The notes under the pieces were generated by a model. The model was given only the letters and a program-made list of their open reading frames with translations, was not told the DNA's origin and made no database searches. Shown here one piece after another: positions 13,031 through 19,952 of a DNA stretch of 64,000 bases. The stretch is from Roseovarius sp. MMSF_3350 (lineage in GTDB: Bacteria; Pseudomonadota; Alphaproteobacteria; Rhodobacterales; Rhodobacteraceae). The translations under genes and the position numbers were made by a program. Numbering within the stretch: the stretch's first letter is position 1; each line of letters starts with the position of its first letter. Where the stretch lies: assembly GCF_030733425.1 (NCBI RefSeq), contig NZ_JASHIZ010000009.1:1-64000 (forward strand), written 5' to 3'.

Positions 13031-13049
13031 TGGTGGGCGACCTAGGAAT
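13031..13049. repeat. Left attachment-site repeat (attL-like)
   Basis: Nineteen bases identical to the last 19 bases of the tRNA-Tyr gene at 19869-19887. Only the tRNA 3' end is duplicated; the rest of the tRNA is absent, as expected for an integrase core site. Confidence 0.8.
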
Positions 13050-13204: not shown

Positions 13205-14050
13205 CTAATGGCTGTCGGCTAAGCACTCCAGAACGTACGCGGCCAGAGTATGGGCCGAATGGATGACCAAGCGCGCATGCCGGGGGCGCAAGGCTGTTTC
13301 GCGATACTGATCCTCCGTTCGGCCATGTGCGCCGCTCTTCTTGTTTCGCAGATACATCGTTCCATCCACGATGCTGTTCAGCCCGGAAGCTATCTTTTTG
13401 AGGTCCTTCGCCTCTAAGTTCTTCGGGTTAATACCAAGATCATCCCGGACGAGTTGCCAAAGAGTATTGAGTGTTTCTTTGTCGTCTTTGAACGGTATAT
13501 CTTGAGCCTTTAAGTACGCCTTCAAGGCCGCCTCCAATACATTGCCTGCATAGTGGGCCGCTGCGTTCGGATCATCGTCAACTTGCTTTATGGCACGCTT
13601 CATCTCGACTTCGACTGCGGACATTCCGCCTTCGCGAATTATCTCAGCCAAGGACGCAGTGGGCGTGGCTATACCGCTTCCGATATACCCGCCTTCGGAA
13701 TACGATAGACCGGACTTGGCCAAGGCCGCGCGGACTTTTTCTTGATAGGCGCGAAGGTCTGAGGACCATTCAGGCTCTTCCAACTGCGCCCACGGCGGGG
13801 CGTTCTCCAAAGTCCACGGCTCACGCTCTAGCAGGTCTTCCAACAGAGGGCCAAGAACGCTCAGAGGTTTGCGGGACAACTTGTTCGCCCTGCGCAGCCA
13901 CTCAACAGTCTTGACAGTCTTGTTGCCGTCCGGCGCATCCCCGGGGGCATCTGCATACGTGAACTGTCGGTCAATTTCGCTATGTGAGTAGTATGCTGGG
14001 AATACCTCTCCGAGTACCCCGATGACCCTTGAAGGTATCTTGTCTGACAT
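13205..14050 (-). CDS. Abi_C/HEPN-like abortive-infection candidate protein
   Basis: 281 residues from the ATG at 14050 (MSDKIPSRVIGVLGEV). The C-terminal domain (about 155-275) matches the pattern of abortive-infection C-terminal (Abi_C) domains: 'PNAAAHYAGNVLEAALKAYL', then 'LNSIVDGTMYLRNKKSGAHG', then 'RHARLVIHSAHTLAAYVLE'. R235-N236 to H242 forms an R-N-x5-H motif like the catalytic RNase motif of HEPN domains. The N-terminal half is unknown and may sense or bind the partner. It lies 151 bases downstream of the island's AAA ATPase gene on the same strand. Infection-triggered RNase activity is an inference from motif and location. Confidence 0.65.
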   Translation of the reverse strand: MSDKIPSRVIGVLGEVFPAYYSHSEIDRQFTYADAPGDAPDGNKTVKTVEWLRRANKLSRKPLSVLGPLLEDLLEREPWTLENAPPWAQLEEPEWSSDLRAYQEKVRAALAKSGLSYSEGGYIGSGIATPTASLAEIIREGGMSAVEVEMKRAIKQVDDDPNAAAHYAGNVLEAALKAYLKAQDIPFKDDKETLNTLWQLVRDDLGINPKNLEAKDLKKIASGLNSIVDGTMYLRNKKSGAHGRTEDQYRETALRPRHARLVIHSAHTLAAYVLECLADSH

Positions 14051-14201
14051 CGTTCGCTTTACCCCACTCTGTGATGGACGGTCGTCGCACTGTCTAACCC
14101 TACTGGATCCACAGACGCCGCCCGTACCAATTCGTCCCACTTCGGAACACTCTGGCTTTTGCGGCTTCGAAACTGGTAGATGGCAGTTATTTGCCTGTAT
14201 T

Positions 14202-15488
14202 CTAGGTGCCCCGACTTCGCTGTATGCGCGGGTGGTCAACTTCCAACTCAACGCCAGCGGTCTCTGCACGCAATCGGACGTAACCCCTGACCATCTTCTC
14301 TGTGAACTCATACCAGCCTGCTCGCGAGCCAGTTAAGATGGCGGCGTGGCTTGTTTTCTTGAGGCTGTTGAGGCGCTGGTTGAACTTGGCGCGATCCAGA
14401 GGCTCGTCGCTCAACTGCCGCATCATGGTCTCGTAGCTGGCAAAAATCTCTTTGCTGGGTCGGATCAATTCATGCCCGTCCGCCACCGCCCACAAGACTG
14501 TCTCGTAGTCGTTGTTGTACTTTCGGGTTGCCTTCTCGTAGGGCGCGCGCAGACGCATCTCCATAGACTGTGAAGCCGCCAGCATGGCTTCGCCAAAGTC
14601 GTTAGGTGTCGCTACGCCGTCTGACTTCTTATAGAAGACTTGCCAGAACAGTTTCTCAGATAGGAAGTGGACATAGTGCGGGAACCCGTCCGATATGCGC
14701 GCAATTCGGATGCTGGTGTCCCTGTCGACATCAACCCCTACTGCATCGGCCGCAGTGGTGATGATTTCCTCTCGTGCTTCCCACGGAAGCTGACCGAGAC
14801 CTACTGTATGAAAGTACCGATCCGCACTGCCGTGCGCTGACATGATGGCGTCTACGCTTTCTCCGATACCGCAGAATATGAACTTCGCGTTCACATGCTT
14901 GTCGGAGACCAGTTTGATGAAGGTCGCGAAGCGTTCTTGCTCGTCGCGGTCCTCCACCAAATCGAATTCATCAATGACAATGACGGGGGCACTTGCACAG
15001 ACTTCGCAAAGGTACTGGACCAACCTCACTGCGTCGTTAGTTGAAGCTGGCAACTCAGCAGCGCCTTTGACCTCTTGGACCTTGCCGCCGAAGGTAAGGC
15101 CAAAACGCGAAAATGATCCGCTGACTTCCGACGCTCGTTGACGTAATCTCGGGTCTCGCCGGTCCACCTCGTCAAAAATCTCCCGGACGATGCTCTGGAA
15201 CGTGCTGTGGCGATCACATCCAACCAGTATGGGGTCTTGCTCGCGTGCTAGCGCGTACGCTGCGGTTTGCGCCAAAGACGACTTCCCTACGCCACGCAGG
15301 CCGTGGATGAGGATATGCCGACCGGGCTGGTAAAGTGCCTGCTTGATTTCCGCGAGTTGTTGATGACGACCCCTCAAGAACTCGGCCGACTGCAAGGGCC
15401 GCGCCGGGGAGAGCACTCTACCAAGGAGTGCTCCGAATTCCGCGTCGTCGTAAGTTAGCACCGGTCTGTCGCTGTGCAGCTTCGCCAT
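14202..15488 (-). CDS. AAA ATPase (ORC/STAND-like), island-encoded
   Basis: 428 residues. Walker A G63-LRGVGKSS with K69, and Walker B 'VIVIDEFD' with D173/E174. 'FIFCGIGESVDAI' (about residue 200) fits sensor 1, and 'ISDGFPHYVHFLSEKLFW' begins the lid. The C-terminal ~130 residues have a winged-helix-like pattern ('RAKFNQRLNSLKKTSHAAIL'). The layout fits Orc1-like/AAA_16 ATPases, which often act as switches in defence or mobile elements. GC is lower than the chromosome. It is divergent from the gene at 15540 and upstream of the Abi_C-like gene, so the pair may form one operon. Confidence 0.75.
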   Translation of the reverse strand: MAKLHSDRPVLTYDDAEFGALLGRVLSPARPLQSAEFLRGRHQQLAEIKQALYQPGRHILIHGLRGVGKSSLAQTAAYALAREQDPILVGCDRHSTFQSIVREIFDEVDRRDPRLRQRASEVSGSFSRFGLTFGGKVQEVKGAAELPASTNDAVRLVQYLCEVCASAPVIVIDEFDLVEDRDEQERFATFIKLVSDKHVNAKFIFCGIGESVDAIMSAHGSADRYFHTVGLGQLPWEAREEIITTAADAVGVDVDRDTSIRIARISDGFPHYVHFLSEKLFWQVFYKKSDGVATPNDFGEAMLAASQSMEMRLRAPYEKATRKYNNDYETVLWAVADGHELIRPSKEIFASYETMMRQLSDEPLDRAKFNQRLNSLKKTSHAAILTGSRAGWYEFTEKMVRGYVRLRAETAGVELEVDHPRIQRSRGT

Positions 15489-15539: not shown

Positions 15540-15947
15540 ATGGCAAGGAATTACGACGATTTGTGGAATGGATCGGACGGGCATACTGCACATAGTGGCT
15601 TGCCCCATTCCCTGCGCTCGCTTACCTGGGACAGCATGGAACTGATTTACCCAATTAATTTCGAAGGCCACGAGGAGTGGCTGGACAGTGGATACGCGGT
15701 CAGCCTTGCCTCGGGGGATGTCATCACGCGCGATGGAGAGGTTCTGGGGACTTGGCGTGTTGCGTATAACCCTGAAGCCAAGCCGGGCGTTGACGACGGA
15801 AGCGGGTGCTTTGAGTTCATCGTGGATGGTCAATCTGCCCCGATTTTCTTGGCAGGTTTTGCGTCACTGGATAGCAGGATCAATCAGGGCACGGCTTTGT
15901 CCTACTTCACCCGGACGATCAGAGATTGGCACGAAGCGGGAAGCTGA
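15540..15947 (+). CDS. Hypothetical protein of the island
   Basis: 135 residues from the ATG at 15540 (MARNYDDLWNGSDG). An upstream in-frame start at 15474 would overlap the divergent ATPase start, so the shorter form is preferred. It is soluble and acidic, with beta-rich sequence 'DSGYAVSLASGDVITRDGEV' and a helical end 'SYFTRTIRDWHEAGS'. No known family. It may be cargo or part of the defence locus. Confidence 0.5.
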   Translation: MARNYDDLWNGSDGHTAHSGLPHSLRSLTWDSMELIYPINFEGHEEWLDSGYAVSLASGDVITRDGEVLGTWRVAYNPEAKPGVDDGSGCFEFIVDGQSAPIFLAGFASLDSRINQGTALSYFTRTIRDWHEAGS

Positions 15948-16294: not shown

Positions 16295-16918
16295 ATGATC
16301 GTTGGGTATGCCAGAACGTCCACCTTGGACCAGAAGGCCGGGCTTGAAGCCCAGCAGACAGAACTGAAAGCAGCGGGGTGCGAGAAGGTCTTCGTTGAAC
16401 AGGTCTCCTCTGTTGATGTGAAAGCCCGTGAACGGCTTGCGGAGGCCCTCGATTATGTCCGGGAGGGGGATACCCTTGTCGTGACCAAGCTGGACCGTCT
16501 AGCCCGCTCTGTGGCGCACCTGCTGGAGGTGCTGGAGGTCATATCAAGCAAGGGGGCCTCGCTTCGCATCCTGTCCATGGGGATCGACACGGGCACCGCA
16601 ACCGGCAAGCTGATGCTAACGATCCTCGGGGGCGTGGCGGAGTTTGAGCGGGAGATCATGCTGGAGCGGCAACGCGAAGGCATTGCAAAGGCCAAGGCCG
16701 CCGGGAAGTACAAGGGCAGGAAGCCAACTGCCAGAGCCAAGGCAGATGAAGTGATGGCCCTGAAATCTGATGGCGTCGGTCCTGCTGAGATCGCACGGCG
16801 GCTCGGGATGGGCCGGGCTAGCGTGTATCGCATCCTGAACGACCAGAAGGACAGGGCAGGGGCTGAGCAAGCAACTGATCCACTGGCGGAGGCCGCTGTA
16901 CCAACTGCCTCGGGGTGA
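16295..16918 (+). CDS. Serine recombinase (resolvase/invertase family)
   Basis: 207 residues. The catalytic domain opens MIVGYARTSTLDQKAGLEAQ with nucleophile S9. 'LVVTKLDRLARS' carries the conserved Arg residues, 'GKLMLTILGGVAEFEREIML' is the E helix, and a C-terminal helix-turn-helix reads 'GPAEIARRLGMGRASVYRIL'. Length is normal for Tn3-type resolvases or DNA invertases. The res-like palindromes directly upstream favour resolution or inversion rather than tRNA-site integration. It is intact and may recombine the island or an invertible segment not seen here. Confidence 0.9.
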   Translation: MIVGYARTSTLDQKAGLEAQQTELKAAGCEKVFVEQVSSVDVKARERLAEALDYVREGDTLVVTKLDRLARSVAHLLEVLEVISSKGASLRILSMGIDTGTATGKLMLTILGGVAEFEREIMLERQREGIAKAKAAGKYKGRKPTARAKADEVMALKSDGVGPAEIARRLGMGRASVYRILNDQKDRAGAEQATDPLAEAAVPTASG

Positions 16919-16981: not shown

Positions 16982-17236
16982 CTATCCGTTCGCATCCTTG
17001 TCGATTTGTGCGAGATCAGCGACAGCCGCTGAGGGATCAAAATCAAGTACCTCGCTTAGTTTGATGAACTCGATCACATCAACCCGGCGCTCTCCGCTTT
17101 CAACGCGGGCAATGAATGATTGGTATACCTTCATCTGGGCCGCTAGCTGGACTTGGGTAAGACCTGCTTGTTTTCGCCGACGGATCAAGAAAGCCACGAG
17201 AGCGTCATGCCGGTTATCTCCAAGTGTTTTCGGCAT
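16982..17236 (-). CDS. XRE-family HTH regulator
   Basis: 84 residues, essentially one Cro/C1-type helix-turn-helix: 'RRRKQAGLTQVQLAAQMKVY' followed by 'QSFIARVESGERRVDVIEFI'. It is likely a dimeric repressor. It is convergent with the serine recombinase and divergent from the exported-protein remnant at 17385; the AT-rich spacer 17237-17384 probably has its operator. Confidence 0.85.
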   Translation of the reverse strand: MPKTLGDNRHDALVAFLIRRRKQAGLTQVQLAAQMKVYQSFIARVESGERRVDVIEFIKLSEVLDFDPSAAVADLAQIDKDANG

Positions 17237-19160: not shown

Positions 19161-19802
19161 TCAGACATTACACGGAAGACGGACGCGGAACTCGCGCGGT
19201 TCAGCGGCTTGACGGGCTGGGGCAGGGGAGGCTAGCGCCGGGGCAGTATCCCGCAGGTCAATATCCCGCATGCTTACACTGTAAGATAGCGCCTCTTGCG
19301 CATACGCACGGTGCCCGGACTGAAGCGCCTCCAGCAGCCATTCTCGGTGCTCCTTTGTCAAGACGCCTTCATCAATTCCACGCGCCTCGCAGAAGTCCCG
19401 TAGTAGGCCGTCAGACCCGCCAGTGAAGGCCAGCTCAGCCCATGCGTCGGGATCGCCCTTAGCAAGCCCTTCAGCGGCTCTGATGGCATCCAATCGGACA
19501 GAGGGCATCGGTCCACCGCTGGCTATATCCTCCTGCGTCTCTCGCAGAAGCTGTCGGAAGTGATCCCGGACGTGTTCTCGGATTTCGTCGTACCGCATGC
19601 GGCGAATAGATGCGCAAGATATTTGCTGTTGTCCAGCCAGAGTGAGGGCGCGTGCAAGTCGGCGCGCGCTCTCAGGGCATCTGGTATGCAGCGATACCTT
19701 CACGTCCGACTTTTTGCCTTCTGGGTGAAAATGAGCGGGAAGGGGCCAGCGGAAGTAAAAAACACCGTGACGCGAGTAGGTTAGATAAGCTGGAAGGCGC
19801 AT
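19161..19802 (-). pseudogene. Tyrosine integrase N-terminal fragment
   Basis: 213 residues starting MRLPAYLTYSRHGVFYFRWP, the typical N terminus of tRNA-targeting alphaproteobacterial phage/island integrases (DUF6538-like arm-binding region). It is followed by the helical 'SVLHTR...ESARRLARALTLAG' region. The frame ends at 19161, before any catalytic R...H-x-x-R...Y. Full-length relatives are usually 400-500 residues. The position beside the tRNA-Tyr site, reading away from it, is where the island integrase should be. Hence a truncated integrase. Confidence 0.7.
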
Positions 19803-19868: not shown

Positions 19869-19952
19869 TGGTGGGCGACCTAGGAATCGAACCTAGCGTG
19901 CGTCTCCGCGAGGGAGTTACAGTCCCCTGCCACACCTTGCGGCCTGTCGCCC
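19869..19952 (-). tRNA. tRNA-Tyr (GTA), island attachment site
   Basis: An 84-nt class II tRNA with encoded CCA (TGG on the + strand at 19869-19871). The acceptor stem GGGCGAC pairs with GTCGCCC, the anticodon loop CTGTAAC gives GTA, there is a long variable arm, and the T arm reads CTAGGTTCGATTCCTAG. Its last 19 bases are duplicated at 13031-13049. Confidence 0.93.

Follow-up and report, generated by a model that had tools for sequence, protein, structure and literature searches.

Neighbouring genes for an ORC/Cdc6-like ATPase and an AbiJ-type HEPN protein in a tRNA-Tyr island of Roseovarius: probably two independent defence-type cargo genes

The locus and its two genes

The DNA considered here (the window) comprises 64,000 nucleotides of Roseovarius sp. 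MMSF_3350 (RefSeq assembly GCF_030733425.1, contig NZ_JASHIZ010000009.1, positions 1 to 64,000 of the forward strand). Two adjacent genes in it, here called A and B, had been put forward in a reading of the letters alone as a candidate anti-phage pair, consisting of an ORC/STAND-like AAA ATPase and an Abi_C/HEPN-like protein. The domain assignments of that proposal are supported, and both gene families occupy mobile, defence-type locations, but the pairing of A with B does not find such support. Rather than a two-gene system, the 6.86-kb tRNA-Tyr island in which they lie has probably collected two independent defence-type cargo genes, each most likely acting alone. The features on which the discussion turns are the following.

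13031 to 13049, no strand: island end, a 19-bp exact copy of the tRNA-Tyr 3′ end (direct repeat with 19869-19887)
13205 to 14050, minus strand: gene B, Abi_C/AbiJ-type HEPN protein of 281 amino acids (PF14355, PADLOC AbiJ, homologue-supported start)
13325 to 13348, minus strand: HEPN motif of gene B, R235 (13346-13348) to H242 (13325-13327), from alignment and predicted HEPN fold
13691 to 14050, minus strand: N-terminal part of gene B, residues 1-120, with no Pfam match to B itself
14202 to 15488, minus strand: gene A, predicted ORC/Cdc6-like AAA+ ATPase with a winged-helix-type tail, 428 amino acids, phrog_6841 (profiles and predicted fold)
14967 to 14972, minus strand: Walker B acidic pair of gene A, D173-E174, invariant in 23 of 23 sequences
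15276 to 15302, minus strand: Walker A of gene A (GLRGVGKS), G63 to S71 with K69, its invariant residues kept in 23 of 23 sequences
19869 to 19952, minus strand: tRNA-Tyr, the insertion site of the island (ARAGORN and direct repeat)

The open reading frame (ORF) of gene B as called mechanically extends to 14311; homologues align from the ATG at 14050, so that the gap between A and B is 151 bases, and with this start the coordinates, the common strand and the gap given in the sequence-only reading are borne out. The tRNA-Tyr island described there is also real: the 19-bp 3′ end of the tRNA gene is repeated exactly at 13031-13049, and, since the repeat marks both ends of the element, genes A and B lie inside an integrated element of 6,857 bp. 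Gene B lies outermost at one end, beside the attachment site, and an integrase remnant is found at the other. The guanine plus cytosine (GC) content of the island is 57.2% versus 64.7% in the rest of the window, which agrees with the lower GC noted for the two genes, and third-position GC is 0.66 in gene A and 0.62 in gene B versus 0.85 in two chromosomal genes.

Are A and B linked elsewhere?

In the family sample (295 genomes), A was found in eight genomes and B in 13, with E-value cut-offs of 1e-10 and 1e-5, respectively; in the phylum sample (398 genomes; cut-offs 1e-15 and 1e-8) the corresponding numbers are four and nine. Both genes together are found in the window's own genome alone, so that the co-occurrence in other genomes that a pair would lead one to expect was encountered in neither sample. 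The eight family genomes with A include one with the gene in pieces (G063) and one with part of the gene at a contig end (G001). As the genes are rare and the overlap expected by chance, with the own genome excluded, is well under one genome (7 x 12 / 294 and 3 x 8 / 397), an obligate pair is rejected by these samples, whereas a weak link is not.

The neighbourhoods tell the same story. No B was present in the DNA retrieved around six gene A relatives in genome contigs (55-78% identity, one partial; two of the stretches extend less than 1 kb downstream), and relatives of B with 64-66% identity have no A beside them. In a set of 186 loci, 118 are matched by A profiles and 68 by B profiles, and both only at two copies of the own locus. 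Once own-locus and near-identical copies had been removed, there remained 83 A loci, 76 of them extending 1 kb or more downstream, and 50 B loci, 39 of them extending 1 kb or more upstream: gene B was downstream of A in 0 of the 76, and gene A upstream of B in 0 of the 39. An obligate A-B pair would not look like this, while a weak or recent association is possible; most likely the adjacency reflects chance neighbourhood in a cargo site. The intergenic region is uninformative in this respect: it has no promoter-like site, and its one terminator-like site lies on the opposite strand, both counts being lower than the shuffled expectation.

Gene B, a HEPN protein of the Abi_C/AbiJ type

The resemblance of the C terminus of gene B to Abi_C, noted from the letters, is confirmed by a match to PF14355 (E 3.1e-16; 59.7 bits against a cut-off of 24), which also matches 24 of 24 members of a gene B alignment at E≤1 (best 4.2e-22). 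The R235-N-x5-H242 motif proposed for it is present, with R and H conserved in all 30 family members aligned (three truncated matches excluded), and E173, K177, R235, A241, H242 and G243 are invariant across 16 full-length relatives. Together, R235-N-x5-H242 and E173/K177 fit the HEPN RNase motifs as defined in PMC3710099, namely Rx4-6H and Ex3[KR].

The AlphaFold model of gene B has a mean predicted local distance difference test score (pLDDT) of 87.1 and a predicted template modelling score (pTM) of 0.55. Foldseek returned no match with E below 0.001, the two best rows being HEPN proteins. In VIA-align 2, the model aligns with the HEPN protein 2hsb at Z 12.9 (root-mean-square deviation, rmsd, 2.8; 117 residues aligned), in agreement with the HEPN fold expected from the motif, followed by 1o3u (Z 12.8), AbiA (Z 9.4), Csm6 (Z 8.4) and AbiV (Z 7.4); the word ‘HEPN’ stands in the title of 11 among the best 26 rows (Z 12.9 to 7.0), and Csm6, AbiA and AbiV are counted as HEPN families in PMC3710099. 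Although helical bundles may reach such Z by chance, a HEPN fold is predicted because HEPN-titled rows, HEPN-listed families and catalytic residues agree.

The N-terminal part gave no Pfam match at E<1 (whether the library holds AbiJ NTD1/NTD2 models was not established), one of 24 relatives weakly touched AbiJ_NTD3 (E 0.1), and its fold was barely probed in the structure comparison, in which the HEPN part fills the result list. A PDB sequence search gave no useful match for gene A or gene B. On the strength of its profile matches and predicted fold, gene B can be regarded as a further member of the known Abi_C/AbiJ family, which it resembles in its C-terminal HEPN domain with Rx4-6H and Ex3K, in its size of 281 residues, in its occurrence on plasmids and prophages and in having no fixed partner; it differs in the N-terminal part, which matches no Pfam model, and in that the PADLOC AbiJ model (E 6.3e-14) covers residues 171-276 alone.

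Gene B has matches in 135 plasmid records, and of the 40 listed, 39 bear the annotation ‘abortive infection family protein’. A homologue also neighbours the integrase in the P2-like phage ESSI2_ev040, and an alignment search gave 29 viral-contig loci. Fusions of the N-terminal part to other effectors were not apparent among 40 listed of 116 plasmid records, in which the features are labelled ‘abortive infection family protein’ or ‘hypothetical protein’. Among the 288 ORFs around 68 gene B loci, clustering picked out P2 tail genes at 11 loci, a recombinase at 5, a UvrB-like ORF at 4 (representing two places) and groups of 3. A general operon partner was sought in these clusters and rejected, in that the recurring neighbour groups, besides the P2 tail genes, span 3-5 of the 68 loci.

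Some of these neighbourhoods deserve separate mention. Distant relatives of about 300 residues (L017, L019, L065 and L068; four loci, but two places) directly follow a large ORF with the motif GATGTGKT, which we take to be UvrB-like. In the viral contig of L103 (3086-4816) the homologue stands beside an AbiV-type HEPN gene (PF18728), then a resolvase-like gene, so that two Abi-type genes are found together. In those of L084, L085 and L098, a related ORF of up to 258 amino acids adjoins the gene B homologue and, in L098, shares 4 bases with the start of the latter. The ORF carries the motif YMDDL and, by this motif, is presumably a reverse transcriptase.

Gene A, a predicted ORC/Cdc6-like ATPase of the phrog_6841 family

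Both Walker motifs read in the ATPase are there: K69 of Walker A and D173-E174 of Walker B are invariant in 23 of 23 sequences, as are G63, R65, G66, G68 and S71 of Walker A. Beyond the Walker residues, R65, K192, H219, S221, R224, G268, H274, Y317 and A320 were scored as invariant in the same 23 sequences. Gene A matches AAA_16 (E 5.1e-13) and, marginally, nSTAND1 (28.9 bits against a cut-off of 27.1), to which 51 of 52 relatives match at E≤0.01. The best description is given by phrog_6841 (E 1.4e-76; residues 22-419 on positions 20-427 of the 470 of the profile), matched by 52 of 52 alignment members and given as function unknown in PHROGs. From this family, which it matches at full length, gene A differs in lying in an integrated island, not a recognisable prophage. 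In a literature search limited to open-licence PMC papers, neither phrog_6841 nor the A-B pairing was named.

The model of gene A (pLDDT 88.1, pTM 0.85) consists of an AAA+ core followed by a winged-helix-type C-terminal part, and its fold is predicted to be that of ORC/Cdc6-like AAA+ proteins, with which the ‘sensor-1-like strand’ and ‘winged-helix-like tail’ of the sequence-only reading agree. Its structural neighbours are the archaeal ATPases 2qen (Z 20.8) and SSO1545 (2fna; Z 20.6), archaeal Orc/Cdc6 (Z 18.1-19.6, about 330 residues aligned, rmsd 8-10 across domains) and TnsC (Z 16.8), which, with nSTAND1 in its relatives, makes ‘ORC/STAND-like’ an apt name. The likeness to ORC/Cdc6, SSO1545-type ATPases and TnsC lies in the AAA+ core and the winged-helix-type tail; however, identity is 10-17%, rmsd is 7-10 over two domains, and the NCBIfam orc1/cdc6 model TIGR02928 scores 22.7 bits, far under its cut-off of 181.3. 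With the Avs/NLR STAND NTPases gene A shares the (marginal) nSTAND domain, but no separate effector domain or C-terminal repeat sensor was found among 25 of the 28 Pfam matches, the core and the tail filling the model, and gene A is therefore not filed as an Avs-like STAND protein.

Clustering of the 614 ORFs around 118 gene A loci gave phage regulators and lysis, portal and terminase genes, together with small unidentified ORFs common to near-identical loci; a conserved operon partner was looked for among them and rejected, as nothing recurs across unrelated loci apart from the phage regulatory, lysis, portal and terminase genes. In eight loci a P2 portal gene lies downstream of the ATPase on the opposite strand, with a terminase gene behind it in seven. 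In a Salmonella P2-like phage-plasmid and two E. coli chromosomes the ATPase is flanked by the replication-endonuclease and portal genes, a site known as a defence hotspot from PMC9519451 and PMC9122126; the ATPase in one of these chromosomes is identical to that of L158, one of the eight portal-linked loci. Among 5426 complete E. coli genomes, four carry the L158 version, with identities of 96.6-100%. E. coli strains with the P2-hotspot ATPase include EC6622 and VG888-46E9 (L193, L194).

Of these portal-linked members, seven share 23-27% identity with gene A and the eighth (L114) shares 36%. A hidden Markov model (HMM) of 20 closer gene A relatives nevertheless matches the five remote P2 members tested, near full length, with E 5e-67 to 5e-66 (search size set to 1,000), whereas of the controls an ORC-like ATPase found at a gene B locus (L064) gave E 0.019 and the ParA-type AAA protein of L070 and the L158 terminase (frame unchecked) gave no score. 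Other gene A relatives occur alone on plasmids or beside chromosomal genes, and one lies 32 bp behind a BsuBI/PstI restriction-modification pair. In the Clavibacter nebraskensis plasmid pCM2L (L073, 1517-4251) a DUF4238 gene is found two genes downstream of the gene A relative, on the opposite strand; this type of protein is described in PMC9122126 as validated P2-hotspot defence.

In two Burkholderia plasmids, one carries A and the other B behind the same SOS-peptidase, H-NS and integrase order (by annotation, the DNA not having been aligned), an exchange that suggests interchangeable cargo. The positions of the uncharacterised gene A family suggest defence or exclusion, without proof.

Proposed action and alternative readings

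From the fold predictions, the invariance of the catalytic residues, the location of both families in mobile contexts and the lack of linkage in the searched data, a mode of action may be proposed for each protein separately. Gene B alone would be an AbiJ-type abortive-infection protein, whose N-terminal part of about 130 residues may sense a phage event or keep the protein inactive; its C-terminal HEPN domain, probably as a dimer, would cut RNA through R235 and H242 and so stop the cell before phage release. Gene A alone would be a nucleotide-driven, DNA-binding ORC/Cdc6-type AAA+ protein that assembles on DNA and could interfere with the replication of an incoming phage or of competing elements.

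Several points weigh against two cargo genes with such functions. RNase activity, DNA binding and protection are inferred for A and B; an AbiJ of S. thermophilus, when tested, is listed under ‘No activity’ in PMC12322248; and the PADLOC models match gene A weakly (mad8 E 1.2e-4, the best, and PDC-S59 E 1.5e-4), the corresponding counts among 52 relatives, with E up to 0.01, being 50 for mad8, 24 for PDC-S59 and 19 for IetA. As to independence, the nearest-identity B fragment of the family sample (G273, 83% over 29 residues) ends at a contig edge, with its neighbour out of view, and one IMG source genome (by contig name) holds a distant A (27%, L166) and a B (34%, L104), unlinked on separate viral contigs. 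To these are to be added the position of some gene A relatives in phages, the 151-bp gap and the L064 locus, each of which favours one of the alternatives that follow.

The first alternative, which we consider unlikely, is that gene A is a phage-life gene, i.e. a late or replication-associated ATPase left in the island by accident. Indeed, 16 loci (8 + 8, several near-identical) have the ATPase directly behind a Q-type antiterminator and before lysis genes, with a holin next in four loci of one of the two groups. Genes behind Q antiterminators are usually expressed late, and the position is as compatible with a late function in the phage as with defence, so that such a role keeps some probability; the ORC/clamp-loader/TnsC fold and the 78 loci in viral contigs point the same way. 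On the other hand, matches are found in 3 of 50,697 phage records, and relatives are carried as lone cargo by plasmids and chromosomes, occupy the P2 defence hotspot and, in single cases, follow the restriction-modification pair or lie near the DUF4238 gene, of the type validated as hotspot defence in PMC9122126.

Less probable still is a recent but true two-gene system, in which A would be a sensor or antitoxin ATPase and B an RNase released by it, as in PARIS or ParA-HEPN dyads. The two genes share strand, island and low GC, the 151-bp gap would permit co-transcription, and pairings of HEPN proteins with ATPases are described in PMC3710099. Moreover, at L064 (6557-9760; genome G648, contig 71) a B of 37% identity is preceded, 115 bp upstream on the same strand, by an ORC-CDC6-like ATPase of 495 amino acids which is unrelated to gene A and belongs to another family; a further gene of 255 amino acids precedes this ATPase, and the locus is possibly a separate ATPase-Abi_C operon. 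However, when B loci with a neighbour in the same direction and no more than 300 bp away are considered, this is the one place with an ORC-like ATPase; the other Walker-A neighbours are a large UvrB-like ORF before the distant B relatives of L065 and L068 and one further P-loop ORF behind L068. In addition, no second linked A-B case appeared in the searched data, and both families recur at full length, each without the other. As in PARIS and other ATPase-effector pairs, an ATPase gene adjoins a nuclease-type gene here, but the PARIS genes form a two-gene cassette or fusion, present across 5.2% of genomes as given in PMC9122126, whereas A and B were linked once in the searched data.

That gene B is an island-stabilising toxin or an inactive HEPN remnant, not an anti-phage protein, is hardly probable: HEPN proteins are common toxins of toxin-antitoxin loci (PMC3710099) and B lies beside the attachment site, but R, H and the upstream E-x3-K are retained, so that it is no obvious remnant, no conserved antitoxin-like partner was found among the neighbours of 68 B loci (single loci having a RelE/HTH pair or a PIN_12 gene nearby), and it occurs on plasmids and in a P2-like phage, annotated there as an ‘abortive infection family protein’.

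With two independent cargo genes as the preferred reading, the proposed ATPase-HEPN pair should not, as the data stand, be treated as a system. The gene A family is the better lead: it is mobile, has an initiator-like fold and, in E. coli P2 prophages, is found alone at the replication-endonuclease/portal site, which is also occupied by several proven defence genes. If this family protects, it would be a simple one-gene defence built on a replication-type machine. A wider and more tentative proposal, to which we give somewhat less than even credence, is that phrog_6841 comprises unrecognised ATPases with a single-gene anti-phage or prophage-exclusion function, for which the ORC/Cdc6 fold has been reused; these would pass between plasmids, chromosomal islands, the P2 hotspot and the Q-lysis site of prophages. 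The member in the present island would then have as its neighbour an AbiJ RNase whose N-terminal domain is undescribed, and is perhaps starting to cooperate with this RNase.

Other genes of the island

Between gene A and the tRNA gene, a helix-turn-helix (HTH) protein encoded at 16982-17236 (minus strand) resembles the Y4mF antitoxin model, below the cut-off. Gene C (15540-15947, plus strand, 135 amino acids), a conceivable third component beside A and B, is divergent from gene A and has no Pfam match; five plasmids carry relatives, as do 5 of 198 family genomes, counting the own genome. Two genes concern the mobility of the element.

19161 to 19802, minus strand: integrase remnant of 213 amino acids, DUF6538 N-terminal part only (PF20172, E 4.6e-9)
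16295 to 16918, plus strand: serine recombinase (resolvase) of the island (PF00239, E 3.2e-42)

The remnant ORF has no Pfam match besides PF20172, the other half of the integrase not having been searched for. Because the integrase next to the tRNA gene consists of the DUF6538 N-terminal part only, the island is probably now unable to move on its own.

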